Shown here: one piece after another, positions 2,642 to 21,475 of the stretch
How positions within the stretch are numbered: the stretch's first letter is position 1
Layout: every line of letters starts with the position of its first letter
Assembly (NCBI RefSeq): GCF_041200145.1
Contig: NZ_CP165734.1
Coordinates: forward strand, 7,669,001 to 7,733,000
Direction of reading: 5' to 3'
DNA length: 64,000 nucleotides
Source: Bradyrhizobium sp. LLZ17
GTDB taxonomy: Bacteria; Pseudomonadota; Alphaproteobacteria; Rhizobiales; Xanthobacteraceae
Translations under genes and position numbers: made by a program
Notes under the pieces: generated by a model
The model's input: the letters and a program-made list of their open reading frames with translations, nothing else
Database searches by the model: none
Told to the model about the DNA's origin: nothing

Positions 2642-3127
2642 CTACTTCGCCCACACGCCGTCGTGCAGCGCTTCGGCTTCGTCCTCGAGCAACGGGCCCA
2701 CGACCTCCGTCGGCCGCTGGCCGGCGGCAAAGATGTCGCGGCAAGGCAGATCGAGCGTCGGGTTCTCCGGGTGGTTGCCGGTAAGACCGCGCAGGCGGTG
2801 CTCGCCGAGGCCATAGACCACGCGGCCGATGCCTGCCCAGTAGATTGCGCCGGCACACATCGCGCAGGGTTCCGCGGAGGAATAGAGTGTGGCCTTCGCC
2901 AGGATCGCACGAGTTAGCGTGCGGCAAGCCTGCGTGGCCGCGAGGCGCTCGGCATGCGCGGTGCTGTCGTGATCCGGCATGTAGCCGTTTTCGGTTTCCA
3001 TCAGCACATGGCCGTCCGCATCGACGACGATGCAGCCGAAGGGATGGTTGCCATGGGTGAGGGAACGGCGGGCGACCGCAAAGGACAGGCGCAGAAAGTG
3101 TTCGTCGCGTTCGGCTGCGCCGCTCAT
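2642..3127 (-). CDS. Nucleoside deaminase family protein, guanine-deaminase-like
   Basis: This 161-residue protein has the cytidine/deoxycytidylate deaminase fold. The N-terminal HPFGCIVVDADG segment, the zinc motif HAE (TAHAERLA) and PCAMC (SSAEPCAMCAGAIYW) are intact. The sequence EPCAMCAGAIYWA followed by a basic C-terminal region is like Bacillus-type guanine deaminase (GuaD) more than TadA. It would convert guanine to xanthine and ammonia in the cytoplasm. A strong Shine-Dalgarno (GAGGAG) precedes the ATG. It is last in the nucleobase-importer operon, separated from the ATPase gene by a palindromic repeat. The substrate is inferred from the neighbours; TadA-like or other deaminase activity remains possible. 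Confidence 0.85.
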   Translation of the reverse strand: MSGAAERDEHFLRLSFAVARRSLTHGNHPFGCIVVDADGHVLMETENGYMPDHDSTAHAERLAATQACRTLTRAILAKATLYSSAEPCAMCAGAIYWAGIGRVVYGLGEHRLRGLTGNHPENPTLDLPCRDIFAAGQRPTEVVGPLLEDEAEALHDGVWAK

Positions 3128-3138
3128 CGCTGCTCCTC

Positions 3139-3187
3139 GAGCATGATCCGGAAAAGTGTGCAGCGGTTTTCCGAAAAGACCATGCTC
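3139..3187. repeat. Dispersed palindromic repeat inside operon
   Basis: Nested inverted repeats: GAGCATG (3139-3145) pairs with CATGCTC (3181-3187), and CGGAAAA (3149-3155) with TTTTCCG (3167-3173). This sequence class is common in Bradyrhizobium and Rhodopseudomonas intergenic regions. It lies in the 70-base gap between the ATPase and deaminase genes and would fold in the transcript. Confidence 0.8.
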
Positions 3188-3197
3188 AAACCATTTG

Positions 3198-4730
3198 TCA
3201 GTGCCCCGCCATATGCCGGCCGATCACGGTAAGGTCGGCCTCGCTGGTCCGTGCTTCATACACGAATTCGCCGTGGAACATCACCACCAGGCGATCGGAG
3301 AGCTCGAGCAGTTCGTCGAGGTCCTCGCTGACCAGCAACACCGCCGCGCCGCGATTGCGCGCGGCCATGATCTCGGCATGGATCTGCGCCACCGCGGCAA
3401 AGTCGAGGCCGAAGCAGGGATTGGCCGCAATCAGCACCTCGACGTCATCGCCGAGTTCACGTGCCAGCACGGCGCGCTGCACATTGCCGCCCGACAGCGC
3501 TGAGATCGGCGTATCCGGAGACCGGGTCTTGATTTTGTACTGCCCGATCTTCTTCTTCGCGTCGTCCCGGAAGGCGCCGCGATTGAGCCACCAGCCGAGG
3601 CTGGCAAAGGGCGCACGGTCGAACTCGCGGAAGGCGATGTTGTCGGCGACGCTCATGCCGCCGACGCAGGCGTTCTTCAGCGGTTCCTCCGGCAGGAGCG
3701 ACATCTTGTGCCGCCGCATCTCCTCACGGCTGGCGTGATAGGGGTCGCCGGCAACGCGGATTTCGCCGCTCTCGGATTCGCGCTGGCCCGCCAGCACTTC
3801 GACGAGCTGGCGCTGGCCGTTCCCGGAGACACCCGCGATGCCGACGATCTCGCCGGCGCGCACTGTGAGCGAGACGTCCTGCACGGCGATGGCGCCGGCA
3901 TCGTCGAGGGCGCGAATCTTGCTCAGTGTCAGCTTCGCCGCGCCCGCTTCGCCGGTGCGCGGCGGCTGCACGGTCAACTCTTCGGCGCCAATCATGGTCC
4001 GCGCCATCGCATCGGGCGTGAGCTCGGCGACCTTGCCGGCACCTGCGAGCTTGCCGCGGCGCAGGATCGTGACGTCGTCGGCAAACGCCATGACCTCGCG
4101 GAATTTGTGGGTGATCATCAGGATGGTCAGCTCGCCTTTGACCACCATGTCGCGGAGCATCCCGAGCACCTCGTCGGCTTCCGCTGGCGTCAGCACCGAG
4201 GTCGGTTCGTCCAGGATCAGGAAACGCCGCTTGAGATAGAGCTGCTTGAGGATCTCGCATTTCTGCCGCTCGCCGGCGGAGATATCCGAGACCTTCGCGC
4301 CGAGTGGGACCTTGAAGGGCATCCGCGCCAAAAACGCCTCGAGCTCCTTCATCTCCTTGGCCCAGTCCACGATTGCCGGCACGTTGTCGCGCGCCAGCAC
4401 GAGATTTTCCGCGACCGTCATCGCCGGCACCAGCGTGAAATGCTGGTAGACCATGCCGAGCCCGAGCGCGTGAGCGTCCTTCGGGTTGGCGATCGCCTGC
4501 TCGTGATCGCCAATGATGATGTCGCCTTCGGTCGCGTGGTAGTAGCCCATGATGCATTTGACCAGCGTCGACTTGCCGGCGCCGTTCTCGCCGAGCAGCG
4601 CATGGAACGAGCCCGGCCGCACCTTCAGCTCGACATTGTCCAGCGCCAGGAAGTCGCCGAAGCGCATCGTCATGGCAATGGCGTTGACGCCGAAGGCGCC
4701 TGACGGCGGGGGCGGCTCGCCGATGATCAC
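3198..4730 (-). CDS. ABC transporter ATP-binding protein, BMP-type nucleobase/nucleoside importer
   Basis: A 510-residue double ATPase. The first domain has [10 protein letters not shown] (Walker A), VYQHFT, SAGERQK and FLILDEPTS. The second has [10 protein letters not shown] (a degenerate Walker A, usual in this family), LSGGNVQRA and an ENCF-like AANPCFGLD segment. I chose the GTG at 4730 because it overlaps the stop of the upstream gene as GTGA, indicating translational coupling; the longer frame upstream has no family likeness. It energises the two permeases at 5433-7473 on the cytoplasmic side. The gene order (binding protein, permeases, hydrolase, ATPase, deaminase) points to import of purines or related nitrogen compounds. 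Confidence 0.92.
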
Positions 4731-5410
4731 GAAATCGCTCCGATAAAGGCGTCGGAGGTCGAGACTGCGCCGAACACGCCGCCCTGCATCTTGATCATCT
4801 TCAACGCGTGCTCGTGGTTGCTCTTGTCGGTCGCGCCGCAGCAATCGTGCAACAGCACGCATTCGAAGCCACGGTCGTTGGCCTCCCGCATCGTGGTGTG
4901 GACGCACACGTCGGTGGTGATGCCCGTCAACACGATATTCTCGATACCGCGCACGCGCAGGATCAGCTCGAGATCGGTGGCGCAGAACGAACCCTTGCCG
5001 GGCTTGTCGATGATGGGCTCGCCCGGCAACGGCGCGAGCTCCTCAATGATGTCCCAGCCCGGCTCGCCGCGCACCAGAATGCGGCCGCAGGGGCCGGGGT
5101 CGCCAATGCCCGCACCGATCTGGCGCGAACGCCAGCGCTTGTTGGCGGGCAGGTCGGACAGATCGGGGCGATGGCCCTCGCGGGTATGGATGATGTGAAA
5201 GCCTTGGGCGCGCATAGCCGCGAGCAGCTTCTTGATCGGCTCGATCGGCGCTCGGGTCAGTGAGAGGTCGTAGCCCATCTTGTCGACATAGCCACCGATG
5301 CCGCAGAAATCGGTCTGCATGTCGATGATGATGAGCGCGGTATTCTCCGGTCGGAGGTCGCCATTGTAGGGCCAGGCATAGGGCTCGGATTTGATGTAGC
5401 GCTCGGGCAT
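4727..5410 (-). CDS. biuH: Biuret hydrolase, isochorismatase-family cysteine hydrolase
   Basis: The protein has 227 residues. It is an isochorismatase-fold amidase with Asp in [10 protein letters not shown], Lys in [12 protein letters not shown] and the nucleophile Cys in [18 protein letters not shown], the catalytic triad of the family. Stretches such as PYNG, the [13 protein letters not shown] block and [19 protein letters not shown] closely match what I recall of the biuret hydrolase of Rhizobium leguminosarum (biuret to allophanate plus ammonia); ureidoacrylate hydrolase (RutB) is the alternative. The ATG at 5410 follows a GAGGT ribosome site, 22 bases after the permease stop. The stop overlaps the ATPase start (GTGA). 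The cellular site is the cytoplasm. Confidence 0.85.
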
Positions 5411-5432
5411 GGACGACCTCGTTGATGCGCGA

Positions 5433-6359
5433 TTATCGTGTGATTGAAAGTTCGGCGGGTGCACCGGTCAGCGTCTGCTTCGGCGAGCAGGTGATGATCA
5501 TGATCGCCAGCGTCAGGATGTAGGGCGCCGCGTTGAAGAGATGATAGCCGGAGGTGACGCCGACCGATTGCAGCGCCGGACCCAGCGCTGCCGCGCCCCC
5601 GAAGGCGAGCGAGGCCCACAGGCACAGCAGGGGATCCCAGCGCGCGAAGATCACCAGCGCCACCGCCGTGATGCCCTGCCCGGAGGACAGGCCCTCGTTC
5701 CAGCTTCCGGGGTAAAACAGCGAAAGAAAAGAGCCGCCAATTCCCGCGAGGAAGCCGCCGACCATGGTGGCGCGCAGGCGGATCAGCAGCACGGAATGGC
5801 CCATGGCGCGTGCGGCATCCGAGCTTTCGCCGGCGGTGCGGATGAGAAGGCCCCAGCGCGTGGTGCGGAAAGCCCAGTAGAGGATCGGTGCAAGTGCGAC
5901 GCCGATCAGGAAGAGGACATTGACCCGCAAAGCGGCGCGGAGCTGCGGGATGTCGCTCCACCAGCCGAAATCGATTGCCGGCAGGCGCGGTGCGGTCGGC
6001 TCGATCAGAGGCTTGCCGAGGTAGAACGCAAGTCCGGTTCCGAACAGCATCAGCGCGATGCCGACCGCAACGTCGTTGACGCGCGGCAGCGAGCAGATTC
6101 CGGCATGGAGCGCGCCGAGCAACGCACCGGTGATGCCGGCGGCGAGTACCCCGAGCCATGGTGAGCCGGTGAGATAGGAGATGCCATAGGCGCTCATCGC
6201 GCCCATCACCAGCGTGCCTTCGAGGCCGAGATTGATGCGGCCGGAGCGCTCGGTGATGCATTCCCCCAGGCTCACGAACAGGAACGGGGTCGAGACGCGA
6301 ATGGCGCCGCCGAGCACGGCGAGCGGGACGGTCCAGAGTCCGATCGATCCGTCTGCCAT
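5433..6359 (-). CDS. ABC transporter permease, BPD_transp_2 family
   Basis: A 308-residue hydrophobic protein with about eight to nine membrane segments. It begins [20 protein letters not shown] and carries the family motif around [22 protein letters not shown] near residue 37. This is the second, shorter permease typical of BMP-type nucleoside/nucleobase importers. Its start lies one base after the stop of the preceding permease gene, so the two are surely co-translated. It pairs with the protein of 6361-7473 to form the inner-membrane channel. The substrate cannot be read from the sequence; operon partners suggest purines or similar ureides. Confidence 0.92.
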
Positions 6360-6360
6360 C

Positions 6361-7473
6361 TCAGGACTTACCTTTCAGGAATCCGATGCGGCCGTAGAGC
6401 GCGTCGCTTGCCAGCACAAAGACGAAGATGATGCCTTGCAACACCAGCACGGATGCATCGGGCAATCCCAGCCGGCGTTGCAAAAGGCCGCCGCTAGCGC
6501 TAATGCCGCCGAGCAGGATCGCGACGGGGATGATGGCGAGCGGATTCTGCCGCGCGAGGAAGGCGACAAGAATGCCGGTGAAGCCGTAGCCGGCCGCGAG
6601 GTTGGCGTTGGTGCGCCCCTGCACGGCCGCAACCTCGACCATGCCGGCAAGGCCTGCGGCGCCGCCAGCGAGGAAGCAAATCGTCAAAATGAGCTTGCTC
6701 ACGCCGAGGCCGACGATCTTCGCAGCGCGGATATTGCCGCCGGCGACACGCGCGGCAAAGCCGAACACGGTGTGATAGATCAGGATGTAGGCGGCGATTG
6801 CGGCGATCAGGCCGAAGACGAGGCCCCAATGTACGTCGGTGCCGGGGATGGAGCCGATCATGTTGGCGGCGCCGATCTCGCGGGTCGACGGCTTGTTGAG
6901 GCTCGCGGGATCCCGCATCATGCCTTCGACGAGATGGTTGAGGATCGCGAGCGCGATGTAGACGAGTAGCAGGCTCGAGATTGTTTCGTTGACGCCGCGA
7001 AACTGCCGCAGCGCGCCTGCCAGCATGATCCACAGCCCGCCGCCGATCACGCCGGCGCAAACCATGGCGATCTGAACGACGAACGGTGGCATGCCCTGAA
7101 GCGCGAGTGCAGCGCTCGTCGCCGACAGCGCGCCGATCAGGAGAGCGCCTTCGCCGCCGATGATGACCATGCCGAGCTGGGCGGGCAGTGCCGTGCAGAG
7201 CGCCGTGAGGATCAGGGGGGCGGCGCGCGTCAGGGTGTTCTGCCAGGAAAACCAGGTGCCGAAGGCGCCGTAGTACATATAAAAATAAAGATCGAGCGGG
7301 TTCTTGCCGAAGATCGCGACGAAGATGCCGAAGACCACGAGCGCGCCGGCCAGCGCCGCGCCCGGGATCAGAATGTATTCGATTGTCGCGCCGTGGCGCT
7401 GGAGGAAACCAGGATCCGCGGCCGGGGCGATTGCCCCGATCGCTTCAGTGGAATCCGCCGCTTCCGTTGTCAC
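6361..7473 (-). CDS. ABC transporter permease, BPD_transp_2 family (larger subunit)
   Basis: A 370-residue permease with a soluble N-terminal tail of about 30 residues and then about nine to ten membrane segments. The conserved loop near GMVIIGGEGALLIGALSATS matches the larger permease of BMP-type importers, and GAAGLAGMVEVAAVQGRTN is the expected conserved segment before the last helices. The GTG start at 7473 overlaps the stop of the binding-protein gene (GTGA). It forms the inner-membrane pore with the next gene product. Confidence 0.92.
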   Translation of the reverse strand: MTTEAADSTEAIGAIAPAADPGFLQRHGATIEYILIPGAALAGALVVFGIFVAIFGKNPLDLYFYMYYGAFGTWFSWQNTLTRAAPLILTALCTALPAQLGMVIIGGEGALLIGALSATSAALALQGMPPFVVQIAMVCAGVIGGGLWIMLAGALRQFRGVNETISSLLLVYIALAILNHLVEGMMRDPASLNKPSTREIGAANMIGSIPGTDVHWGLVFGLIAAIAAYILIYHTVFGFAARVAGGNIRAAKIVGLGVSKLILTICFLAGGAAGLAGMVEVAAVQGRTNANLAAGYGFTGILVAFLARQNPLAIIPVAILLGGISASGGLLQRRLGLPDASVLVLQGIIFVFVLASDALYGRIGFLKGKS

Positions 7474-8581
7474 GAAGTCGCTCCGATCACGCCTTCGACC
7501 AGATAGTCCATCTTCTCGAGCTCGGGATCTTTCTGGCCCCGATCGGTGCCGGCCGCGATCACCGTCTTGCCCTTGTTGTCAACCAACCCGCCCTTAAAGA
7601 TGGCGTAGCCGTCGGCGGACAAGAATTTTGCCTTGACGTCGTCGGCGTGCTTGCGCGCTTCCGCGGAAACCGCTTCGCCGTAGGGCGAGGTCTTCACGAT
7701 CTCTTCCTTGAGGCCGCCACGATAGAAATTCGGGATGGTTTCGCCCGCGGCGATCATCTTGACGAATTTCGGGTAGAGCGCTTCCCAGTTCCACTCCGCA
7801 CCGGTGAGATAAGCCTTCGGCGCGAGCGGCGACTGGTTGACGTGATAGCCGCACACCATTGCGCCCCGGCGGGCCGCGTTCTCGACCATGGTCTTCGGGC
7901 CGTCGACGTGACAGGTGAGCACATCGACTCCTGGTCGATCAGGCTGTTGGTGGCTTCAGCTTCCTTGACCGGCATCGACCAGTCACCCGTGAAAATTACC
8001 TGGGTTGTCGCCTTCGGGTTGGCGAGCTTGGCGCCAAGCGCGAACGCATTGATGTTGCGCAACACCTGCGGGATAGGCTTTGCAGCAACGAAGCCCAGCT
8101 TGCCGCTCTTGGAGGTGTATCCGGCCACGATGCCGGAGATGTACTGGGCTTCATCGATATAGCCGAAATAGCTGCCGGCGTTCTTGGGGTCCTTGTCGCT
8201 CCAGAGGCCGCCGCAGTGCTCGAAGCGCAGCTTCGGGAACTTGCTGGCCATCTTGATCATGTGCGGATTGTAGTAGCCGAACGAAGTCGGGAAGAGCAGG
8301 CTGGCGCCGTCGAGGTTAATCATGGACTCGATGGTCTTCTCGACCGCGTCGGTCTCCGGCACCTTTTCTTCCTCGACGACCTTGAGGCCGGGGATTTTCT
8401 TCAGCGCTGCGGCGCCCTGGGCGTGGGCCTGGTTGTAGCCGTAGTCATCGCGCGAACCGACATAGATGAAGCCGATGGTCGTATCGGCTGCGAACGCCCG
8501 GTGGGCGCCGGCCGCGGCGCCCAGGGTGAGTGCCGCACCGCCCTGCAACAAATGCCGTCGTGAAATCCTGCCAAAATCCAT
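7470..8581 (-). CDS. BMP-family substrate-binding protein (frame interrupted near 7925)
   Basis: A periplasmic BMP-type (basic membrane protein/Med-like) binding protein of about 370 residues. The ATG at 8581 follows a GGGAGCGAG ribosome site and starts a Tat-type signal (SRRHLLQGG). Family features include FIYVGSRDDYGYNQAH and, further on, FPKLRFEHCGGL. The frame breaks within GACCAGGAGTCG around 7925: adding one G to the GG run restores DQGVDVLTCHVDGPKTM and the rest to 7470. The missing base in a G run looks like sequencing error, but a real null allele is possible. It is first gene of the importer operon, 64 or so bases downstream of the predicted sigma-54 transcription start. Known relatives bind nucleosides, purines or riboflavin. 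Confidence 0.85.
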
Positions 8582-8656
8582 TGCTCGCTCCCTTGGCGGC
8601 TGCACCGCCATGATCTCGCGGCTGCGCCGGTCTGGCGGAGCCTGGAACAGGATGTC

Positions 8657-8671
8657 GCAAGCTTCGTGCCA
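8657..8671 (-). promoter_or_regulatory. Sigma-54 (RpoN) promoter of nucleobase-importer operon
   Basis: On the minus strand the sequence reads TGGCACG-AAGC-TTGC, a full match to the -24/-12 consensus TGGCACG-N4-TTGC with the invariant GG and GC spaced correctly. Transcription would begin near 8645, giving a leader of about 64 bases before the ATG at 8581. Such promoters need an NtrC-type activator, which fits a nitrogen-acquisition operon. Confidence 0.82.
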
Positions 8672-8969
8672 GAGGTCACGAAGTAATCATTTTGGAATAA
8701 GCATTTGAAACAACAGCGTTATGGCGCGCTTCATAAACCTGACCAGGAAATCGGCAGATTAAATATTAGGCAGTCATGTATGATTGTATGCAAGGCAGTT
8801 AAGCAGTCTTAACCAGCTCATACGTGTGCATGACGGAGAGTTGGACGATCGGCCGGCTCCCCGCATCATGCTAACCACGCTCTGATTGGGACGGGCGCCG
8901 GCGGAGCGATTTTCGCTGGCACCGAACTTGTATCGATTGTCGTCACGATCGCCGCGCGCGGTCGCCAGG
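8672..8969. other. Divergent regulatory region between importer operon and hydrolase gene
   Basis: About 300 bases without a gene. It should contain activator sites for the sigma-54 promoter at 8657-8671 and the promoter of the plus-strand hydrolase gene. The stretch around 8700-8810 is noticeably A+T-rich. A weaker TGGCACC-N4-TTGT element at 8917-8931 points toward the hydrolase gene but lacks the invariant -12 GC. I did not find a clear NtrC palindrome by eye. Confidence 0.45.
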
Positions 8970-10247
8970 ATGGAAAGCTCGACCGAAATGGGTGCTGCTA
9001 GCGCCGTTCAAGATGCATCACTCGGCAAGGAGATCGTTCGCCGCATCCAAGAGCTCGGCGCGATCTCGGAAGAAGCCGACAAGCTTACCCGCATCTATCT
9101 CAGCAAGGAGCTGCGTAGGGCGGCCGACCTCATTCTCGGCTGGATGCGCGAGGCCGGCATGAGCGCGCATCTCGATGCGATCGGCAACGTGTGCGGCCGC
9201 TACGAAGGCGAGCGGCCAGGGGCGCCCTGCCTGATGCTCGGCTCGCACTACGATACCGTGCGCGATGCCGGCAAATGGGACGGACCGCTGGGTGTGATCA
9301 CGGCGATCTCCTGCGTCGCCGATCTCAACCGTCGCGGCAAGCGCCTGCCGTTTGCCGTCGAAATCGTCGGCTTTGCCGACGAGGAGGGCGTACGCTTCGC
9401 CTCGACCCTGCTCGGCAGCCGCGCGGTGGCGGGCACCTTTGATGAGAGCGTTTTGAATACGCGCGACCAGGATGGTGTGTCGATGCGGGCTGCGCTCGTC
9501 GAGTTCGGCCTCGATCCCGATCATATCGGGGCGGCGGCACGGGCGCGGCGCGAGTTGCTGGCTTACCTCGAATTGCACATCGAGCAGGGGCCGGTGCTGG
9601 AAGCACAGAATCTGCCCGTCGGGGTCGTCACAGCGATTGCGGGCGCAACCCGGCTTGCCGCACGGCTGACTGGCATGGCCGGCCATGCCGGCACGGTGCC
9701 GATGGCGCTGCGACGCGACGCGCTCAGCGGCGCGGCTGAATGCATTGGAGCGATCGAGCAGTTCTGCCGGACCGATGCGAGCGGGCTCGTCGGCACCGTC
9801 GGCTACATCCATGCCAAGCCAGGCGCGACCAACGTCATTCCGGGCGAAGTGTCGTTTACCATCGACATGCGCGCGCCGACCGACATGCATCGCAAGCGCG
9901 CGGTCGCCGATGTCGTCAGGCAGATCGAGGCGATCGCAAAGCGCCGGCAGTTGGCGCTTCAGCTCGACGTCACCCATGAGAACCGCACCGTGCCTTGCGC
10001 GACCTGGCTGAAGGATCAGATCGCGCAGGCCATCGCTACGGAAGGGTTTTCCGCATTCGAGCTGCCGAGCGGGGCAGGGCATGACGGTATGGCGATGATC
10101 GACATCGCCGATGTCGGCATGATCTTCGTCCGCTGCCGCGGCGGGATCAGCCATCATCCGGACGAGCATGTCGAGCTTGGCGATGCCGATGCCGGCGCAC
10201 GGGTCCTGCTGCGGGTCGTCGAGAATTTCCAGCCGCGGGAAGGCTAA
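8970..10247 (+). CDS. Zn-dependent amidohydrolase (M20), allantoate-amidohydrolase/N-carbamoyl-amino-acid-hydrolase type
   Basis: A 425-residue M20-family enzyme. Metal ligands and motifs are GSHYDTVRDAGKWDGPLGV, DEEGVRF, LELHIEQGPVLE, GHAGTVPM, PSGAGHDGM and the late HHPDE, in the usual order. Allantoate amidohydrolase (AllC), ureidoglycine-type hydrolases and N-carbamoyl-L-amino-acid hydrolases share this layout and cannot be told apart safely here. The reaction is release of ammonia and/or CO2 from a carbamoyl or ureido group. The ATG at 8970 (CAGG ATGGAAAGC) starts where family similarity begins. Its position, divergent from a nucleobase/biuret operon, favours a ureide substrate from purine breakdown. 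Confidence 0.85.
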   Translation: MESSTEMGAASAVQDASLGKEIVRRIQELGAISEEADKLTRIYLSKELRRAADLILGWMREAGMSAHLDAIGNVCGRYEGERPGAPCLMLGSHYDTVRDAGKWDGPLGVITAISCVADLNRRGKRLPFAVEIVGFADEEGVRFASTLLGSRAVAGTFDESVLNTRDQDGVSMRAALVEFGLDPDHIGAAARARRELLAYLELHIEQGPVLEAQNLPVGVVTAIAGATRLAARLTGMAGHAGTVPMALRRDALSGAAECIGAIEQFCRTDASGLVGTVGYIHAKPGATNVIPGEVSFTIDMRAPTDMHRKRAVADVVRQIEAIAKRRQLALQLDVTHENRTVPCATWLKDQIAQAIATEGFSAFELPSGAGHDGMAMIDIADVGMIFVRCRGGISHHPDEHVELGDADAGARVLLRVVENFQPREG

Positions 10248-10279
10248 GCGGCCCGCAACATACCGGCCTGCCGACACGA

Positions 10280-11661
10280 ATGATTCAGATGAACAGCGAC
10301 CTTTCCTTTCCATCCGATCGCGGAAACCGGTTTTACCAGGGAAAGGCGGCGACGTTCGTCGCCAACGCCCTTCAGGCGGTCAATTTTCTCGGCGACCGAT
10401 TCCGAGAAAGCCGCCTGATGTGTCATCGGCGATCTCGGACCTTTACCGGCACTCGATCGACAGTGCGTTTTCGGTGACCGAGTCCTTTCTCGTCACGGGG
10501 GCGCCGCACGCATCGGCCTACTACCCGCGCGACTTCGCCTGGTTCTATCCGGACGTTCTCGATCCGGAGACCATCATCGATGCTCAGGACGCGATCCGGA
10601 GGGCGCGGCTGCTCGAAAAGAGCGTCCGTCTGTTGCTGGCGGCGGTTCGCGCCAATGTCGTCACGACGACCATCGTCCCGGCGGGACGCGGCCGTTATCT
10701 CGGCGTGAACTATTTCTCGCGCCCCTCGGACACGCTGCTGGGCGTTCTTGCCGGTCTCCGGCAGATGCTCTCTGCCGAAGAGCGGGCATCGTCTTATCTG
10801 GCGATGTCGCAGTGCGCGCATGCCGGCCGTCTGTTGCTGGCCGAATACGGCGGCGATCTGGAGCGCGCAATCCTGAAACTCGCAAGCGAGCTCGAGCCGT
10901 TCGAAGCTGACGGCGCCAGATATTTGCTCTGCGACGCCCGCGGCCCTCGCTCTGCGGCAACGGACACCCGCGCCGAGCGCCGGCGGTTTGTCACCAATGC
11001 CTGCGTCTACACGACCTTCGCGTGGGGTGTGCAGCTCGGGGTGGTCTACGAGAACCGGCTGAAGCGATTGCTCGGGCGCGACCTCGCGCGATACAAGCAG
11101 GACCTGCTCCGTCTGTTCGGCAAGGATGGCTATATCAGGCATTCGCTGGATAGCCCGGCGGGCACGCCGGCATCCCTGGTCGCGCTCGATTTCGTCAGCG
11201 TCCATCGCGGCTTCTGGGACATGAACGATCCGAGCGAGCGCGCGCTGTTCGCGGCGACGACGGATCTGATCATCGCCGAACCGAGGTTTCGCATACCTGG
11301 GACATCGCACTTCCTGGTGTCCGCGAATAATCCGCGCAACAAGATGATCCACAAGATTGCGGCGCCCGCCTATCAGGGACGCTCCTCCTGGCCGACGTTC
11401 AACGTCGAATTTGCCGATCGCATGCTGGATCACGATGAATTCTCAGGGAGCGATACCTATCGCCGCTATGCCCAGGGCATATTGAAGGACATCCGGACTG
11501 CGACCGAGGTCCATGGCGGATATCAAGAGTTGATCTCGGAATCAGGCTTGAAATATCGCACCTGGGCCTACAAGGGCGCCGTGGCTCACTCCTGGTTTCC
11601 GCGTTTCCTGTCCGTCTGGAGCAGGGCGTTTGGAACGCCCTTGCTCCATTGGAACGATTGA
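10280..11661 (+). CDS. Unrecognised protein of about 460 residues, faintly glycosidase-like (frame break near 10415)
   Basis: The main frame (from about 10420 to 11661) encodes about 413 residues containing ASAYYPRDFAWFYPDVLD, GVNYFSRPSDTLLGVLAGL, a central helical part and a C-terminal EFSGSDTYRRYAQG. The N-terminal 45 codons, from ATG 10280, lie in another frame with coding-like GC-rich third positions, suggesting one missing base near 10415. Alternatively translation starts at the GTG at 10420. The PRDFAW segment and helical repeats recall (alpha/alpha)6-barrel glycoside hydrolases, but this is a weak impression. It follows the amidohydrolase by 33 bases on the same strand, so it may share its transcript. 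No signal peptide is visible. Confidence 0.65.
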
Positions 11662-11671: not shown

Positions 11672-12991
11672 TTACCCCGCCGTGACGTCCACCAGCTCGC
11701 CGCCTTCGAGCACCTTGGCCGCCTTGGCGCGGTCGAGGTCGCCTTCCCAGGCGGCGACCACCACCGTCGCCACGCAATTGCCGATGAGGTTGCCGAGCGC
11801 GCGGGCCATGCCGATGAACCAGTCCACCGACAGCACCAGCACCAGGCCGATCGCCGGAATGCTCGGCACCGCGTTCAGCGTCGCGGCCAGGATCACGATG
11901 GCCGAGCCCGGCACGCCGTGCGCGCCCTTCGACGTGATCAGGGAGACGCCGAGCACCAGCAGGAGATCGCCGAACGACAGCGGCGTGTTGGTCGCTTGCG
12001 CGATGAACACGACGGCGAGCGTCAGGTAGATCGAGAAGGCGTCGAGATTGAAGGAATAGCCGGTCGGAATCACCAGGCCGACGACGGAGTCCTTCACGCC
12101 CATGCGCTCCAGCTTCTTCATGATCTGGGGCAGCACGGCGTCGGAGGACGCCGTCGCGAGCACGATGGTGAGTTCTTCGCGCAGGTAGGCGAGAAATTTG
12201 AGGATGTTGAGTCCGGCCAGCGCCATCACGGTGCCGAGCACGCCGAGCACGAAGATGCCGACCGAGACATAGAACAGCATCACCAGCGAGACGAGCTGCT
12301 TCAGCGAGCCGACACCGTATTTGCCGACGGTGTATGCGACCGCGCCGAGCACGCCGAGTGGAGCAACGCGGACGATCAGCCCCATGACGCGGAACAGCAC
12401 GGTGGAGGCCGCGTCGATCATCGAGGTGACGAGCTTGCCCTTCTCGCCGCCGACCAGCGCCAGGCCGACGCCGAACAGCACCGCAAAGAACAGAACCTGG
12501 AGCACGTCGTTGCGCGACAACGCATCGAAGGAGGTGCTCGGGATCACGTTGAGCAGGAAGGAGCCGACGCCGGCACCCTGGAGCTTGTGGGCGTTGTCGG
12601 CATAGGTGTTGAGCGCCTTGGCATCCAGCGTCGAGGGATCGATGTTCATCCCATGGCCGGGGCCGAAGACGTAGGCCAGGATGAGCCCGACCACGAGCGC
12701 CACCGTGGTCATCACCTCGAAATAGAGCAGCGCCTTGACGCCAACGCGGCCGACCTTCTTGAGGTCACCGGCGCCGGCAATGCCGTGCACGACCACGCAG
12801 AACACGATCGGTGCCACGATCATCGAAATCAGCTTCAGGAAGGCATCGCTGAGGATCTTGAGGCTGACGGCCAAGTCCGGGGCGGCCACGCCGAGGATGA
12901 TGCCCAGGATCAGCGCTGCCAGAACCTGGACGAACAGCGAAGTGTAGAGCGGCTTGGGCTCGGCGGCCGGGGCCGCTGCAATGGTCGACAT
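11672..12991 (-). CDS. dctA: Dicarboxylate/amino acid:cation symporter, DctA type
   Basis: A 439-residue inner-membrane carrier of the DAACS family with about eight membrane segments. The family signatures are LISMIVAPIVFCVVVHGIAG near residue 55, the serine-rich ATASSDAVLPQIMKK loop, the PTGYSFNLD motif, SKGAHGVPGSAIVILAATL and NLIGNCVATVVVAAWEG, the last two being typical of DctA. The probable role is proton- or sodium-coupled import of C4-dicarboxylates. The ATG at 12991 follows GGGGGAG. A strong sigma-54 promoter lies 43 bases upstream, as is classical for rhizobial dctA, though no dctBD genes are in the window. It runs convergent with the gene ending at 11661, 10 bases away. Confidence 0.88.
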   Translation of the reverse strand: MSTIAAAPAAEPKPLYTSLFVQVLAALILGIILGVAAPDLAVSLKILSDAFLKLISMIVAPIVFCVVVHGIAGAGDLKKVGRVGVKALLYFEVMTTVALVVGLILAYVFGPGHGMNIDPSTLDAKALNTYADNAHKLQGAGVGSFLLNVIPSTSFDALSRNDVLQVLFFAVLFGVGLALVGGEKGKLVTSMIDAASTVLFRVMGLIVRVAPLGVLGAVAYTVGKYGVGSLKQLVSLVMLFYVSVGIFVLGVLGTVMALAGLNILKFLAYLREELTIVLATASSDAVLPQIMKKLERMGVKDSVVGLVIPTGYSFNLDAFSIYLTLAVVFIAQATNTPLSFGDLLLVLGVSLITSKGAHGVPGSAIVILAATLNAVPSIPAIGLVLVLSVDWFIGMARALGNLIGNCVATVVVAAWEGDLDRAKAAKVLEGGELVDVTAG

Positions 12992-13033: not shown

Positions 13034-13048
13034 GCAACAACCATGCCA
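13034..13048 (-). promoter_or_regulatory. Sigma-54 promoter of dctA
   Basis: The minus strand reads TGGCATG-GTTG-TTGC followed by T, matching the sigma-54 consensus TGGCACG-N4-TTGCW at all key positions. Transcription would begin near 13022, about 30 bases before the ATG. In rhizobia dctA is activated by DctD from such a promoter. Only 34 bases separate it from the end of the inserted island at 13083, so upstream activator sites may have been displaced. Confidence 0.82.
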
Positions 13049-13838: not shown

Positions 13839-14074
13839 CTAACCGCGCTGTTACCATCTCGTTGTTTCAGAGAAGAACCGCTTTTCGAAGCTCGCCATAG
13901 CGCAACAGGCACTGCTGAAGCTTCGGCAAATCGCACGATGGGACCCGACTGCTCAATCGCTCAAGAACGTCTTTCTGCAAGTCGATCAACATTATTGACC
14001 ACACACGTGTGATTACCGGTGAAGACGCCGACGAATGATTGTCGTTGTTGGCCATATTCTCGATGTCTGCTTTG

Positions 14075-15163: not shown

Positions 15164-15182
15164 TCTGGTCTGCGATCAAGAG

Positions 15183-15815
15183 TTAGCGCGTCAGCACGAG
15201 GTGCGTCGCCAGCTCGGTTGGGACCACCTCCGTCACCCGATAGCCAAGGCCCGGCAGGTCGACGCCTGTGAACAGGGATTCACCGCGGCCCAGAACGACG
15301 GGCGACAGCGCCAAGTGCATCTCGTCGATTGCTCCTGCGAGTAGATACTGGCGGACAGTCGCAACGCCCCCGCCGATCTTTACGTCCAGGTCGCCCGCGG
15401 CGGCCTTTGCCTCGGCAAGCGCCGCCTCGATCCCGTCGGTAACGAAATGGAAGGTCGTCCCGCCCTCCATCACGATTGACGCCCGGGCATGGTGAGTGAG
15501 GATGAAGGTCGGCGCGTGGTACGGCGGATTGTCGCCCCACCAGCCCTTCCAATCGGGGCCGCCCCAATCGTCGCCGGCCGGCCCGAACATATTGCGTCCG
15601 AGGATGAAGGCGCCGAAGCCTTTCATTGCGGCTTCGGCAAAGCGGTCGTCGGTGCCCCCGTCTTTCCCGATCATCGATCGAAAGGCCAGGGTCGGGAAGA
15701 ACCAGTTCATCAACTCCTGGCCCCGTTTGCCGAGCGGATGTTCCAGGCCCTGATCCGGACCGGCCCCGAAGCCGTCGATGGACACTCCGAAGCCAGCTAC
15801 GCGTACCTTGCCCAT
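15183..15815 (-). CDS. Dihydrofolate-reductase-family protein (RibD C-terminal domain)
   Basis: A 210-residue cytoplasmic protein beginning MGKVRVAGFGVSIDGFGAGP. It carries the RibD C-terminal/DHFR-like nucleotide-binding fold: FGAFILGRNMFGP, then WWGDNPPYHAPTFILTHHAR, and KIGGGVATVRQYLLAGAIDE followed by HLALSPVVLGRGE. Such proteins are NADPH-dependent reductases of unknown substrate, common in soil bacteria and often solitary. It lies inside the insertion-sequence island yet is intact, so it is likely a recent or selected passenger. The stop lies 20 bases from the end of the truncated IS. Confidence 0.85.
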   Translation of the reverse strand: MGKVRVAGFGVSIDGFGAGPDQGLEHPLGKRGQELMNWFFPTLAFRSMIGKDGGTDDRFAEAAMKGFGAFILGRNMFGPAGDDWGGPDWKGWWGDNPPYHAPTFILTHHARASIVMEGGTTFHFVTDGIEAALAEAKAAAGDLDVKIGGGVATVRQYLLAGAIDEMHLALSPVVLGRGESLFTGVDLPGLGYRVTEVVPTELATHLVLTR

Positions 15816-16243
15816 CCGGGCCTCCCTTTAATTGTGAACTGACTCAAGACGAATGGGCACGCGCGTTTCCGACACCATCGGCCTCCTTTGACACAAAATT
15901 TTTAGAATTTCCGACCTTCGCTGACTCGGTTGGGGAAGCCACTCATGTTGTGATGGTCCGTAATGGGTCATTCGCGTCGATTTGCTCGCGTCTTCCCGAT
16001 GTCCGGTCTGGCCTCGACTGCCGACGTGCCGGACACGACGGCGATCTTCGCCTTCTGGGATGGAAGGCGGAACTTATTGGGCTGCAAGTGTGGCCATGGG
16101 AGCGGCCCGCGCAAAGAGCCAAGGACTTGTAAGCGCGCAGGTAACGCTTGGGATGAGCACGAGCATTTGAGAAAATCAAAAGCCCTAACTCGCGCCCGTT
16201 GCGATCCGGACGACATCACTGTCGAAGACGCTGAAAATTCAAA
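15816..16243. other. Island filler without recognisable gene
   Basis: About 430 bases between the reductase gene and the right terminal repeat. Frames on both strands lack family likeness and good ribosome sites. It is probably decayed insertion-sequence DNA. Confidence 0.45.
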
Positions 16244-16278
16244 CTGAGACACTACCCGCGTTCTTCGTCGAAAACGGT

Positions 16279-17292
16279 CTATTCGGCCGCTTTCGCCGTC
16301 CTGCCGAACATCCGCATCGGGGCCGGGAAACCGCAGGACGTGCCGTCGGTGACCTTGACCTGGTCTTCCCACGGCAGGCGAAAGGTGCCGGCCACCATGT
16401 CCTGCATAAAGGTGTAGGGGCAGTCCATCGCGCCGCCTTTGACGGCGACATAACCGCGGTGCCAGAGCTGGTAGATGTTGTTCTCGACGCCCCAATTGAT
16501 GCGAGCCTCGCGCACGAGATCGGGACGCACTTCGGCGGTGATGATCTCGTCGGCGCGGCCGGTGGTGCCGTGCGCGAGCACGCTGCCGTCGAAATTGACG
16601 ATCATGCCTTCGCCCATGGAATCGAACGAGCCGTCAGAGCCGCACATGCAGACATTCGCGGTCACCATCAGGTTCTGGAACGAATTGGCCTGGTTGGTGA
16701 AGCGCCAGGACTCGCGGATCGGTGCGGTGTAGCCGGCGGTACGGATCATGATCTCGGCGCCTTTGTAAGCACATTCCCGCGCCATCTCCGGGAACATGCC
16801 GTCGTGGCAGATGATCAGCGCGATCTTCGCACCGTTCGGGCCCGAGATCACGGGGATGCCGATGTCGCCCGGCTCCCAGGGCTCGACCGGTATCCAGGGA
16901 TGGAGCTTGCGGTAGTAGAGCTTGATGTCGCCGTGGTCGTCGATGATCAGGCCGGAATTGTAGGGATTGCCGTGCGGGTTGAACTCCATGATGGAGAAGC
17001 AACCCCAGATCTTGTTGTCGATGCAGGCTTTCTTGAAGGCGGCGACCTCGGGCCCGTCGAGCCGGCACATGATCTCGGGATTGATGTCCATCGAGAGGCC
17101 GTGCAGCGAATATTCGGGGAAGACCACCAGATCCATCGTGGACAGATTGCGGCGCGCCTTGCCGACCATCCAGACGATGCGCTCCGTCTGCTTCGCCAGA
17201 TCCGCTGGGGTCACGATGCTCGGCAGTTGCAGCTGAACGAGGCCAATGACCACGCCCTCAGGCGATTTGTTCAACCCGCCAAGTCCATTCAT
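16279..17292 (-). CDS. amiF: Formamidase, nitrilase superfamily
   Basis: The protein has 337 residues, the usual AmiF length. The Glu-Lys-Cys triad is visible in VVFPEYSLHG, YYRKLHPW and LIICHDGMFPE. The opening MNGLGGLNKSPEGVVIGLVQ and the stretch GYTAPIRESWRFTNQANSFQ are characteristic of formamidase/aliphatic amidase AmiF. It hydrolyses formamide to formate and ammonia in the cytoplasm. I chose the ATG at 17292 (after GGGAGCAG) over longer upstream frames lacking similarity. It is divergent from the TetR-adenine deaminase operon, and its stop lies 21 bases from the insertion-sequence island. It fits an ammonia-releasing function with its purine and biuret neighbours. Confidence 0.93.
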   Translation of the reverse strand: MNGLGGLNKSPEGVVIGLVQLQLPSIVTPADLAKQTERIVWMVGKARRNLSTMDLVVFPEYSLHGLSMDINPEIMCRLDGPEVAAFKKACIDNKIWGCFSIMEFNPHGNPYNSGLIIDDHGDIKLYYRKLHPWIPVEPWEPGDIGIPVISGPNGAKIALIICHDGMFPEMARECAYKGAEIMIRTAGYTAPIRESWRFTNQANSFQNLMVTANVCMCGSDGSFDSMGEGMIVNFDGSVLAHGTTGRADEIITAEVRPDLVREARINWGVENNIYQLWHRGYVAVKGGAMDCPYTFMQDMVAGTFRLPWEDQVKVTDGTSCGFPAPMRMFGRTAKAAE

Positions 17293-17498
17293 GATCTGCT
17301 CCCTTGTCGTCCGCGCGTCGTTGCGCGCCATCGGAAGAGCAAATCCGATTTTGGCGGCACGCAGAAGTCCATTTTTCAGGCTCGCGGGCGAAAGCGGGCG
17401 TGCTCGCGCGCACCGTGGGGTGTCTTCGACCCATGCTGACGCCCATTGTTGCAGCGCTGCGTGCCTCAAGTCTCGGCTTGACCGCTCAAATCGTCCGG

Positions 17499-17514
17499 TG
17501 TCAGACTTATGACA
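17499..17514. promoter_or_regulatory. Putative operator of the TetR-type regulator
   Basis: The inverted repeat TGTCA-N6-TGACA spans 17499-17514 and overlaps the A of the regulator's ATG. It lies between the divergent formamidase and tetR genes, where an autoregulatory site is expected. Binding by the TetR protein is inferred from position and symmetry only. Confidence 0.5.
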
Positions 17515-18185
17515 TGAGTACAGCAAAGCGACATACCGCCAGCCTTCGTGACGAGTATGCCGCGATTACGCGGCAGCGCATCGTTGCCGCTTTTGTCGAG
17601 ACGCTGGAGGATGAGCAGGCCGACGACATCTCCATGGCCGCGGTGGCCAAACGCGCGAAGGTGGCTGAGCGAACCATCTATCGGCACTTCAAGACCCGCG
17701 CGGAGCTGTTTGCGGCGGCCGGCGAATGGATCGAAAAGAACGTCTTCAGCTATATTCCCTTCACCTCGCCCGACGAGTTGCCGGAGATATTCCGCAAGCT
17801 GTGCAAGCGGTTCGATCGCCATCCGCATTTGGCGCGCGCCATTGCGATGACGCGCGCCGGCCGCCGCGTGCGCGCCGGCTTCCGGCGGCACCTGATCGAC
17901 CAGCATCACAAGGCGATGGCGCCGCTGGTGCAGCATCTCCCCGCGAAGGAGGTCCGCCAGGCGGAGGCGCTCGCGTCCTATCTCAACAACGTGCTGGCCT
18001 GGAATGCGATGCGCGAGGACTTTGGCATGTCCAGTACCGAGGTCGCCGACGCGATCGAGTGGGCGATCACGACCCTTTTGAAGGACGTTCGCCGGCGCGA
18101 TGCCGCTGCTGCCGGAGGCAGCACCAAGGCCGCGAAATCGCAGCGAAAGCGAACCCCGGCCCGCGAGACGACCGGTGCAGTGTGA
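17514..18185 (+). CDS. TetR/AcrR-family transcriptional regulator
   Basis: A 223-residue regulator. The N-terminal DNA-binding domain includes ITRQRIVAAFVETLEDE, then ISMAAVAKRAKVAERTIYRH and F, the standard TetR helix-turn-helix. The rest is an alpha-helical ligand domain, ending in a basic tail rich in K and R. The ATG at 17514 was chosen because the domain begins just after it and longer frames read through the divergent promoter. The adenine deaminase gene starts 9 bases after its stop, so it is probably the local regulator of purine (and perhaps formamide) use. The ligand may be a purine; this is inference. Confidence 0.88.
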   Translation: MSTAKRHTASLRDEYAAITRQRIVAAFVETLEDEQADDISMAAVAKRAKVAERTIYRHFKTRAELFAAAGEWIEKNVFSYIPFTSPDELPEIFRKLCKRFDRHPHLARAIAMTRAGRRVRAGFRRHLIDQHHKAMAPLVQHLPAKEVRQAEALASYLNNVLAWNAMREDFGMSSTEVADAIEWAITTLLKDVRRRDAAAAGGSTKAAKSQRKRTPARETTGAV

Positions 18186-18194
18186 GGTAAGCCC

Positions 18195-20056
18195 ATGAAC
18201 GCGATGCCCGACGATCTTCTGATCAACGCGCCCGACGAGGTTGTTATCCGCCAGGATCTGGTGCTGACGGCGCTCGGCCGCCGCCCGGCCGATCGCTCCT
18301 TGCGGGTCGGCAAGTTGCTCGACGTGCACAGCCGCACCTGGAGCGAGGATCAGGAGATTGTGTTCAAGGGCCGCCGGATCGCATGGGTCGGGCCGGCGGG
18401 AGGCTATCCCGGCGAAGTCCGCGAGCGCGTGCATCGGCCCGATCTTGCGGCGGTCCCCGGGTTCGGTGAAGTGCACAAGCATATCGAAAGCTCGCATCTA
18501 ACGCCGGAATGGGAGGCCGCGCTGGTGCTGCCGCATGGCAATACCTGGACGTGCGAGGCGAGCCACGAATTCTCCAATGTCAACGGCGCACGCAATCTCG
18601 AGTTCTGGTTCGAGGCACGCCGTCGCGGATCGCCGCTGAAAATCTTTCCGCAACCGGGATCGGCGGTGCCGCCGACCGCCTATGAGTGGGGCGGCGGCTG
18701 GTATGGCCGCGAGGAGCAGGCGAGCTTCATGAGCGAGAGCCTGATGGTCACCGGGCTTGACGAAGTCATGGACTGGCCGGCGGTCTGGAATCCGGACAAT
18801 CCGTCCTACAAGCGGCTATGGGGCATGATCGAGGCCACCTTCGCGGCCCGTGGCGTGGTCGAAGGACATGCCTCCGGTCTGCGGGATCTGCCGTCCATCA
18901 ACGCCTTCGCCGCGGCCGGGCTCGCCTCCGACCATGAAGTGCAGACGCCGGAGGAGACCTGGGACAAGCTCACCCGCGGTCTCTTCATCGAATTGCGCGT
19001 CTACGCCATGCCCGAGATCGTCGCCTGGCTGCTTGCCAAGGGCTTGCAGGACTGGTCGCAGATCGCTTTCACCACCGACGACCGCAGCGCCAGCCATACG
19101 CTCGAGCTCGGCGCCAGCGATCACAATGCGCGCGTCGCGATCGAAGCCGGCCTCGCGCCGGAAGTCGCGATCCAATGTCTGACCATCAATCCTGCGCGGC
19201 ACATGCGCATCACGCCGTTGGTCGGCAGTCTCGCCCCCGGGCGTTTCGGTGATGTCGTGTTGCTCTCGGACGTCGCCAAACTGACCATTGCCGAGGTCTG
19301 GGCCGACGGCGCCCAGGTGTCCGAAGGCAAACGTTATTTGGGCCAGGTCCCCGAAATCTCCTGGCCCGACTGGGCGACCAGAACGGTGAATGTCAAGCGC
19401 GCGATCCAGCCGAAGGACTTCGAGTTGCCGGCCGAGCCCGGCCGCACCACGATGAAGGCCGCCGTGATCCGCCCGTTTCATTGGCATCCTGAGTTCTACA
19501 CACTCGAACTGCCGGTGCGTGACGGCGCCGTGCAGCGCGATGAGAACGAGGCGATCACCAAGTTTGCGATCGTGGATCGCTTCTCCGGCGAGGGTCGGGT
19601 TGCAAAAATGTTCTGGCGCGGCTGCGGACCGCGTACGCCGGACACCGCGCCTGCTCAGTCGCGCACGACAAGCACAACATCTGGGTGGTCGGCTCCTCCG
19701 ACGCGGCGATGGCCAAGGCCGTGAATGCGCTGGTCGAACGTCAAGGCGGATGGGCGCTGGTGCGCGAAGGCGAGCTCGCCGCCACCGTGCGGTTCGAGGT
19801 CGGCGGATTGATGAGCTGCCGTTCGGCGCAGGCTCTCGATGCCGAGATGCAGGCGCTCTACGCGGAGGGCCGCAAGGTGGACTGGATGTACGAGCCAACC
19901 TTCCGGCCCCGCTGGTATCCCGGATTTCCGGAGCGCCTGATGTTCGCGACGCTCACCTGCGCGCCGTGGAGCTGGGTGCTGGTCGCGCCCTGCGAGCAGG
20001 CGCCGCTCGGATTCATCAACGTGCAGACCGGCGAAGCGCACCCGGTGGTCTGGTGA
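18195..20056 (+). CDS. ade: Adenine deaminase (frame interrupted near 19650)
   Basis: An amidohydrolase-superfamily enzyme of about 620 residues converting adenine to hypoxanthine plus ammonia. The metal site HxH is in GEVHKHIESSHLTPEWE, followed by ASHEFSNVNG, the VVEGHASGL segment, SDHE and FTTDDR, all in the order of Ade. The C-terminal domain follows (FAIVDRFSGEG, then KMFWRGCGPRTPDTA). Near 19650 the frame slips; the other frame continues with VAHDKHNIWVVGSSD and runs to the stop at 20056. A missing 1 or 4 bases explains it; the codons around it are otherwise intact. The gene is in an operon with tetR (9-base gap) and the purine permease (23-base gap). The ATG at 18204 is an alternative start. 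Confidence 0.85.
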
Positions 20057-20079
20057 GCGCAAGGATAGGGGAAACGGCG

Positions 20080-21475
20080 ATGGACGAGATGACGCTGCCG
20101 CAAACGGCTTCCAAGGACGCAGCACCAAAATCCGTCGGGCCGATCGGCCCGCAAGGTCCGATCGATCGCTTCTTCGGCCTCTCCGAGCGCGGCACCAGCG
20201 TTGGGCGCGAGGTGATGGCCGGTGCGACCACGTTCGCAGCAATGGCCTATATCATCGCAGTCAATCCGGCGATCATGTCCAATGCCGGAATGGACCGCGC
20301 CGATCTCGTCAGCGCGACGGCGCTCGCGGCGATCTTCGGTTCGGTGACGATGGGGCTATGGGCCAACCTGCCGCTCGCCGTTGCGCCGGCGATGGGCTCC
20401 AACGTCATCTTCACCTATGTAATCGTGAAGCAGATGGGCATGCCCTGGCAAGGCGCGCTCGCCATGGTCGCTTTTACGGGCGTGCTGTTCCTGATCCTCA
20501 GCCTGTCGAAGCTGCGCGAGCGCGTCGCACGCGACGTTCCGGAAGCGTTGAAGATCGGCATCCAGGCCGCCGTCGGCACCTTGATCGTGTTCATTGCGCT
20601 GCGCGGCGCGGGCTTCGTGGTGCAGAACCCCTCGACCTATATCGCCATGGGATCGCTACGCAGTCCGCCGGTGCTGCTGACGCTCGCGGGCCTGCTGCTC
20701 ACGCCGGTGCTGGTCGCGCGACGTGTTCCCGGCGGGCTCATCCTGTCGATCGCCGCGCTGACCCTGATCGGCTTCTTCGTTCCCGGCGCAAACGGCAAGA
20801 TGGTGACATCGGTGCCGTCGGCGATCCTTTCTTGGCCGCGCTGGCCGACCAGCACCTTCATGGCGCTCGATGTCGGTTATCTCTTCAGTCACTTCGTCGT
20901 GGTCCTGCCGCTGCTGTTCTACTTCCTGTGCGCCGAATTCTTCTCGACGCTGGGAACGCTGATCGGAGTGACCGGCGCTGCTAACCTGCGCCGCCCGGAT
21001 GGCTCGATCCCGAATGCCACCGCCGCCTTCGCCACCGATGCGACGGCGTCCATCGTCGGCCCGCTGCTCGGAACATCGGTGGTGACGGCTTATATCGAGT
21101 CGATCACCGGGGTTCAGGCCGGGGGACGCACCGGCCTGACCTCGCTGACCGTCGCGTCTCGCCTTGTTCTTCTGGCCGGTCTTCGTCATCATCCCGCCGC
21201 AAGCAACCGCACCCGCGCTGGTGCTCGTCGGCGTGCTGATGATGCAGGGCCTCGCCCGCATCGACATGACCGATCTCGTCAACGCCGTGCCCATTGTGCT
21301 CACGCTGCTGGTCACCGTGCTGACCAACAATCTCATCAACGGAATGGCGCTGGGGACGCTGACTTATATTTTACTGGAAGTCGCGATGGGCCGGCGATCG
21401 CAGATTCCTGCCATAGTCTGGGGTCTCGGCGTGGTGTTCGTCGCCTATGCGGTCGTGACCGCACAGATCTTTTGA
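20080..21475 (+). CDS. Purine permease, NCS2/AzgA family (frame interrupted near 21157)
   Basis: An inner-membrane purine transporter of about 465 residues with some 12 to 14 membrane segments. Family signatures: AGATTFAAMAYIIAVNPAIM near residue 48, VAPAMGSNVIFTY, GIQAAVGTLIVFIAL, DATASIVGPLLGTSVVTAYI and then ESITGVQAGGRTGLTSL. After TVA the frame slips near 21157; the next frame supplies FFWPVFVIIPPQATAPALVL to the true stop. A small base loss explains it. Like AzgA-type carriers it probably imports adenine, guanine or hypoxanthine, supplying the deaminase encoded just upstream. Confidence 0.87.

Follow-up and report, generated by a model that had tools for sequence, protein, structure and literature searches.

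Which compound is taken up by the importer that is encoded together with a biuret hydrolase in Bradyrhizobium sp. LLZ17, and why do biuret genes occur beside purine genes in this organism? The question arises from a window of 64 kb, namely positions 7,669,001-7,733,000 of the single 7.8 Mb contig NZ_CP165734.1, in which an earlier note made from the bare sequence had described a nitrogen-scavenging neighbourhood for purines, biuret and formamide. Every type of gene named there, from the importer to the AzgA-type permease, was found again in its place. The reading that we favour, and which we regard as reasonably probable, is that a BMP-type importer and the biuret hydrolase BiuH serve a nitrogen-controlled scavenging of biuret, triuret or triazines beside the catabolism of urate, the window covering what would be the right-hand half of a Bradyrhizobium island for nitrogen scavenging.

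The operon is transcribed from the minus strand in the order BMP, permease 1, permease 2, biuH, ABC ATPase and zinc deaminase. It begins with the gene of the BMP substrate-binding protein (7470..8611), which is divided between two frames with a break near 7930 and of which the first part only is recognized by PF02608 (95.3 bits for a cut-off of 24.1). It continues with permease 1 (6361..7473) and permease 2 (5433..6359), both matching PF02653, followed by biuH (4727..5410), the importer ATPase (3198..4733), whose two ABC domains appear as two stretches of PF00005, and the deaminase (2642..3127), a protein of the CDA fold. Overlaps of a few bases join BMP to permease 1 and biuH to the ATPase gene, in agreement with the earlier description of an overlapping operon that includes the biuret hydrolase, biuH being located between the permease and ATPase genes. 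Gaps of ~22 nt and ~70 nt precede biuH and the deaminase gene, respectively, values that depend in part on inferred starts: that of biuH is inferred, that of the ATPase is deduced from its overlapping the stop codon of biuH, and those of the M20, orfY and TetR genes discussed below are approximate. NCBIfam, at E 1e-20, assigned no family to two intact binding proteins. BiuH scores 423.7 bits against NF050097 (curated cut-off 370) and, in the alignment with PDB entry 6azo, is identical at all four of Asp36, Lys142, Cys175 and Gln215 (Rhizobium leguminosarum numbering, offset set by hand), the catalytic Asp, Lys and Cys and the inter-subunit Gln being defined in PMC5806882 (this and the other papers are cited from extracts). 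Family, score and active site suggest that the enzyme cleaves biuret into allophanate and ammonia.

Conservation of the operon was read in a sample of 146 genomes of the genus, a match at E 1e-80 or better serving as criterion for a BiuH ortholog. At least 92 of the 146 genomes possess one, as counted by eye among the matches listed. From the 91 genomes other than LLZ17, 40 loci were picked by hand with a preference for complete genomes, long contigs and a spread of identity, and examined over 20 kb each, a length that bounds the neighbours that can be seen. Gene order, on whose conservation in other Bradyrhizobium genomes the earlier note had made its proposal depend, is kept as BMP-perm1-perm2-BiuH-ATPase on one strand in 40/40 loci. 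Outside the genus, all loci with BiuH at E 1e-80 or better were fetched from samples of the class (385 genomes) and the phylum (398 genomes), giving 51 loci in 50 genomes, some of them clipped by contig ends. Counted strictly on matches of at least 45% identity, and whether or not a formamidase gene is interposed, the same core order occurs in 42 of these 51 loci, the others being L083, L104, L105, L106, L124, L125, L127, L128 (a short contig) and L129.

The core operon is of a known kind, since biuH has already been published beside BMP importers (PMC12625717): in nitrifiers, it accompanies bmpA-nupABC, trtA, trtB and atzF, and known upstream purine degradation genes are absent according to the extract of that paper. 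TrtA and the TrtA/BiuH/AtzF operons of Rhizobium leguminosarum 3841 and Herbaspirillum are also in print (PMC7948467). The suggestion that the gene order was little described may hold for the variant with an Msd-like deaminase and urate neighbours, and not for the association of biuH with a BMP importer or for the TrtA/BiuH/AtzF grouping. With these triuret-biuret systems the present operon shares the combination of biuH with a BMP-type importer; it differs by its terminal Msd-like deaminase, by the adjoining genes of urate catabolism, and by the location of the TrtA-like, AtzF and AtzD-family genes elsewhere on the chromosome. No single TrtA-BiuH-AtzF operon was found in this genome, whose best TrtA and AtzF matches are far from biuH: the TrtA-like gene at 2675166 (86% identity to that of L041) and AtzF at 5305498 both lie away from the operon, as does the AtzD-family gene. 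A TrtA-like gene occurs in 8 of the 40 genus loci, and the protein from L041 matches TrtA (6xix, 283.6 bits) better than BiuH (6azo, 225.8 bits). The 51 loci from outside the genus contain TrtA in 34 cases, AtzF in 29 and AtzH in 11, together with GntR regulators, of which one cluster is found in 18 loci and another in 7. A ChrR-type cupin gene was also observed in 21 of these loci (L080-L130), mostly beside trtA.

Control by nitrogen is suggested by the head of the operon. A sigma-54 promoter sequence, TGGCACG-N4-TTGC (8657..8671, minus strand), agrees with the consensus at 11/11 positions and lies 57-60 nt before the BMP start. Perfect sites arose 0.05 times per 64 kb, both strands included, among 20 Markov shuffles of the window. 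Before BMP, 10 or 11 of the 11 positions are conserved in 41/41 genus copies, at a distance of 52-71 nt from the gene start assumed for scanning, and the site is perfect in 34 of the 40 relatives; outside the genus, at least 10 positions are found in 17 of 42 copies. Random segments of the same loci reach 10 positions in 1.3% of 3280 cases, some of which may include the true site. The same scan of the genus loci revealed no sigma-54 site before perm1, perm2, BiuH, the ATPase or the deaminase, nor before the genes of the 8-oxoguanine deaminase, bmp2, the outer-membrane-like protein, M20, orfY, TetR and the adenine-deaminase-like protein. The formamidase gene has a site in 8 of 21 copies, and a second sigma-54-like site in the window (13034..13048, minus strand, 10/11 positions), 57 nt before the gene of a DctA-like dicarboxylate symporter of the SDF family (11672..12991, minus strand; PF00375, 348 bits), retains at least 10 positions in 16/16 copies tested. 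Expression of the BMP-BiuH operon by sigma-54 RNA polymerase under nitrogen limitation is thus probable, and the nitrogen-scavenging role already proposed is supported both by the gene content and by this sequence. A precedent exists in Pseudomonas sp. ADP, whose atzRSTUVW and atzDGEHF operons are sigma-54 dependent and induced by nitrogen starvation (PMC6834077); there, too, a BMP importer is tied to the breakdown of cyanuric acid and biuret, the present operon differing in the use of BiuH rather than AtzE. A simple NtrC dyad was not detected upstream of BMP in the three upstream regions scanned. The divergent intergenic region also contains a conserved block, TGCTTAAC..TTGCATACAA, located ~100 nt beyond the sigma-54 site as seen from the BMP start, which is possibly a regulator site.

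The nature of the cargo was approached through the binding pocket. Among solved structures, the BiuH-linked BMP comes closest to AtzT (203.3 bits), in which guanine is sandwiched between Tyr45 and Trp194 and further contacted by Ser97, Phe98, Glu165, Asn218 and Asn220 (PMC6834077). The AtzT numbering was mapped by hand onto the PDB sequence, and the pocket was read by alignment to this distant relative. At positions 45/97/98/139/165/169/194/218/220, the residues of the BiuH-linked proteins are YSFQQNWHD (74 loci), WSFHTNWHD (5) or YSFHSNWHD (2); the position of Glu165 is accordingly occupied by Gln (74), Thr (5) or Ser (2) and by Glu in 0/81, Trp194 is retained in 81/81, and position 45 is Tyr in 76 and Trp in 5. 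The split BMP of the window exhibits the same pocket residues across its two pieces, as judged by eye. These counts exclude L025, which was unreadable, as well as the second BMP of L036 and those of L104, L109 and L129, set aside as distant or not belonging to a BiuH operon; among them, the bmp2-type protein of L109 has Glu at the 165 position, and the three others do not. The further BMP gene of L036 (L036:982-2313) is close to the biuret operon but encoded on the other strand, is 52-57% identical and has Leu at the AtzT 165 position.

A second importer, bmp2, is adjacent. Most of it lies left of the window, into which the 5' part of its ATPase gene extends (1..750, end approximate, minus strand), as mapped by tblastn over the left flank and the window with proteins of intact relatives; its binding protein was found beside the operon in 27 of the 40 genus loci. 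The nearest solved relative of bmp2 is 3s99 (515.4 bits), modelled with adenine, and its nine pocket residues are WSFREGWHD both here and in 28 loci, so that Glu occupies the 165 position in 28/28 copies and in this genome's own. The combined purine/biuret importer of the earlier note is better read as two adjacent BMP importers, of which only bmp2 keeps the guanine-contacting Glu. With respect to AtzT, the BiuH-linked proteins differ at Glu165, Thr139, Asn218 and Asn220; since the last two changes are common to bmp2, those specific to the BiuH-linked group are at 165 and 139. Because the guanine-contacting Glu of AtzT is replaced and the aromatic sandwich kept, the cargo is most likely a small planar ureide or oxo-triazine, such as biuret, triuret, cyanuric acid or a relative, and not adenine or guanine. 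A change from Glu to Gln where the amine/NH edge is read would fit a ligand with a carbonyl instead of an amine.

A different view of this importer, implied by the name of purine/nucleoside importer given to it in PMC12625717, treats biuH as a passenger whose enzyme disposes of a product of purine oxidation. Membership of the BMP family, the guanine bound by AtzT, the retained sandwich and the proximity of purine genes all agree with it, whereas the Glu lost in every BiuH-linked protein read is preserved in all 28 bmp2 copies, a separate purine-type importer is already there, and the loci from outside the genus mostly bring TrtA (34/51) and AtzF (29/51) and rarely purine genes. On balance, a purine importer is rather unlikely, and uptake of a ureide or oxo-triazine remains the favoured reading.

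The purine genes themselves are found just beyond the window. The earlier note had reported xanthine dehydrogenase (XDH) and allantoinase as lacking, an apparent lack that is a window-edge effect, because an XDH-like enzyme, the allantoinase PuuE (546.9 bits, cut-off 424.6) and a UraD-HIU hydrolase fusion, both parts of which exceed their cut-offs, are encoded within ~11 kb left of the window; an 8-oxoguanine deaminase (668.5 bits, cut-off 532) also lies on that side. The molybdenum enzyme is labelled XDH-like only, because it occurs in two pieces, the large one scoring 429.7 bits with its best model, whose cut-off is 780, and the other having no NCBIfam match. PuuE is encoded in 8 further genus loci, which are the 8 TrtA-bearing ones (78-82% identity; ~275 nt from the operon in L041). 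The UraD-HIU hydrolase gene adjoins the operon in L115 and L116, two genomes from another family of the order, the second of which also possesses an XDH-like gene. When urate is oxidised, triuret and cyanuric acid are formed, and both feed into biuret (PMC7948467); this is the likely biological link between both groups of genes. In the arrangement that we propose, nitrogen limitation would lead sigma-54 RNA polymerase to transcribe the importer-biuH-deaminase unit, the importer would bring in a small planar ureide or oxo-triazine, and BiuH would release ammonia and allophanate from biuret, the genes for allophanate hydrolase and for enzymes resembling triuret hydrolase and the cyanuric acid hydrolase family being encoded elsewhere on the chromosome. 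The XDH-like enzyme, 8-oxoguanine deaminase, UraD-HIU hydrolase, PuuE, bmp2, M20, adenine-deaminase-like and AzgA proteins would make up a pathway from purines to ureides.

The gene that ends the operon had been labelled as a guanine-deaminase-like enzyme; its product appears nearer to Msd (Msmeg3575) than to guanine deaminases, Msd being its nearest neighbour both by sequence and by model. It resembles Msd (PDB entries 5xko-5xkr and 8wlv-8wlx) in fold, length and zinc motif, and differs from it by an identity of ~35% and by its place in a BiuH operon. The six best matches of its model are all Msd entries, four of which are titled with ammeline, 5-azacytosine or 5-azauracil bound. The deaminase gene is present in 31 of the 40 genus loci, in 30 of them directly after the ATPase, and the named organisms among the best 120 relatives listed are Bradyrhizobium. 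No locus among the 40 holds both this gene and TrtA. A strict mutual exclusion of the two was considered and rejected on account of L040 and L049, in which the deaminase stands beside BiuH and a BiuH paralogue is located ~19-20 kb away. A limited literature search on the deaminase itself found nothing relevant.

The formamidase of the window (16279..17289, minus strand) is of the AmiF type represented by 5g3o and 2dyu, scoring 576.6 bits against NF009803 (cut-off 406), and the Glu, Lys and Cys that we take to be the catalytic triad of formamidase are kept in all of the 38 alignment rows, out of 40, that show a residue at these places, the genus copies being among those aligned. Its gene is ~8 kb from the operon in the window and occurs in 21 of the 40 genus loci. 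Outside the genus, it occurs in 17 of the 51 loci, once after the ATPase (L118) and in the 16 others, which represent 12 families, in the slot that separates perm2 from biuH and in their orientation, a location inside a biuH operon which sets these relatives apart from the known AmiF-type enzymes. A literature search combining biuret with formamidase, guanine deaminase or a Bradyrhizobium nitrogen source retrieved no such operon, which is not proof of absence in print.

Both enzymes could belong to an azapyrimidine or amino-triazine route, in which the Msd-like deaminase would act on 5-azacytosine or ammeline to yield the corresponding oxo compound, 5-azauracil would give N-formylbiuret, a formamidase-type reaction would deformylate it, and BiuH would take the resulting biuret, with oxonate as the purine link. 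The opening of the 5-azauracil ring to formylbiuret is general chemical background and is counted here against the route. The Msd entries recovered by the deaminase model and their bound ligands, the formamidase gene in the perm2-biuH slot and, in one genus locus of the 40 (L037), the presence of two genes, for an AtzD/TrzD-family protein and a UPRTase, that separate the deaminase gene from the operon all point in its direction, as do the decarboxylation of oxonic acid to 5-azauracil (PMC4011208) and the binding of ammeline by AtzT at 0.36 uM (PMC6834077). An identity of ~35% does not fix a substrate, however, the family of this formamidase is named for formamide, the window copy is distant from the operon, and the deaminase query, at E 1e-12, had no match in the 51 loci from outside the genus; as an account of the operon, the route is doubtful. 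Equally speculative is a broader proposal, according to which the operon would form a unit for the uptake and breakdown of oxidised urate and s-triazine products, composed of a BMP importer for oxo-triazines or ureides, the Msd-like deaminase, BiuH, and a formamidase whose actual role would be to remove the formyl group of N-formylbiuret or formylurea.

The remaining genes of the window are less constant. To the left of the operon, an outer-membrane-like protein (1267..2469, plus strand), a name taken from the earlier note, has no Pfam match and occurs in 28 of the 40 genus loci. Divergent from the operon, an M20 protein resembling allantoate amidohydrolases and carbamoylases (8970..10247, plus strand, start approximate; NF006775, 574.3 bits for a cut-off of 479; PF01546) is encoded in 36 of the 40 loci, and beside it, in 26, occurs orfY (10408..11661, plus strand, start approximate), of ~411 residues and with no Pfam match. 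The dicarboxylate symporter, a transposase remnant and a RibD_C protein separate the two halves of the island. To the right, the formamidase is followed by a TetR-type regulator (17507..18185, plus strand, start approximate; PF00440), an adenine-deaminase-like gene (18195..20053, plus strand) in two frames with a break near 19665, and a frame-broken AzgA-type purine permease (20089..21153, plus strand; PF00860), of which 355 residues are matched and whose gene probably extends to ~21475 in another frame. The adenine deaminase announced earlier has its gene at the expected place, but falls below the TIGR01178 cut-off of 472.5 bits even as an intact relative (276.8 bits, against 198.2 bits here), and its nearest PDB entry is Ade2 (3nqb).

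The view that nitrogen genes without mutual relation came together by chance, in a region dense in genes, would accommodate the transposase remnant and the patchy right half (formamidase, TetR, adenine-deaminase-like and AzgA genes), the adenine-deaminase-like gene being found in only 24 of the 146 genus genomes. Yet this gene lies at most ~17 kb from BiuH in 21 of the 22 genomes where both share a contig (by eye, among the matches listed), the exception being G145, and two further genomes have them on different contigs. With a core order kept in every genus locus examined, chance is rejected for the core and is very improbable as a general explanation.

Frame breaks affect the pathway in this genome. 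Genes split between frames represent 3 of the 18 tested here (bmp2 permease, BMP and adenine-deaminase-like genes), compared with 3 of 506 gene tests in the 40 relatives, all of which have an unsplit BMP gene. AzgA is broken here as well, and three relatives have open frames of 488-529 residues. Elsewhere in the genome, the only AtzF above its cut-off (5305498-5307167) is in two frames, according to its coordinates, and so is a second allophanate-hydrolase-like gene (4445702-4446930). Because they scatter over the genome, the breaks look more like assembly indels than like decay of the pathway.

Several points weigh against the scavenging of biuret, triuret or triazines as proposed here. The ligand of the BMP is deduced from residues aligned to a distant relative, xanthine or urate could suit a pocket that has lost Glu no less than biuret, triuret or cyanuric acid would, and in L104 and L129, with their more distant BiuH (61%), the BMP is too distant to be read. 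Of the 42 promoter copies outside the genus, 10 score 9 positions and 15 score 8 or less or have no site. The deaminase, confined to the genus loci in the comparison given above, is not known to take part in biuret chemistry, and a purine linkage of this type is seen within the order only. Finally, because BMP, the adenine-deaminase-like gene, AzgA, the bmp2 permease and AtzF are frame-broken, this strain may lack a working pathway, unless the breaks are sequencing errors.

To what is already in print, the present analysis adds the variant with an Msd-like deaminase and urate neighbours, the sigma-54 promoter, the binding-site signature and the formamidase inside the operon, with ligand, control and substrates all inferred. 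As the natural source of triuret, and hence of biuret, urate oxidation has been proposed (PMC7948467). A biuret operon located beside urate genes in two Bradyrhizobium groups and in a second family of the order provides genomic support for such a urate origin. The signature of the binding protein bears on whether the true cargo of importers called 'nucleoside' importers is biuret or triuret, and the formamidase encoded within the operon suggests a step of which the literature search found no assay. Should the broader proposal of a unit for oxidised urate and s-triazine products be true, urate oxidation, through triuret, cyanuric acid and oxonate/5-azauracil, would be the natural source of biuret and would explain why biuret genes lie beside purine genes.

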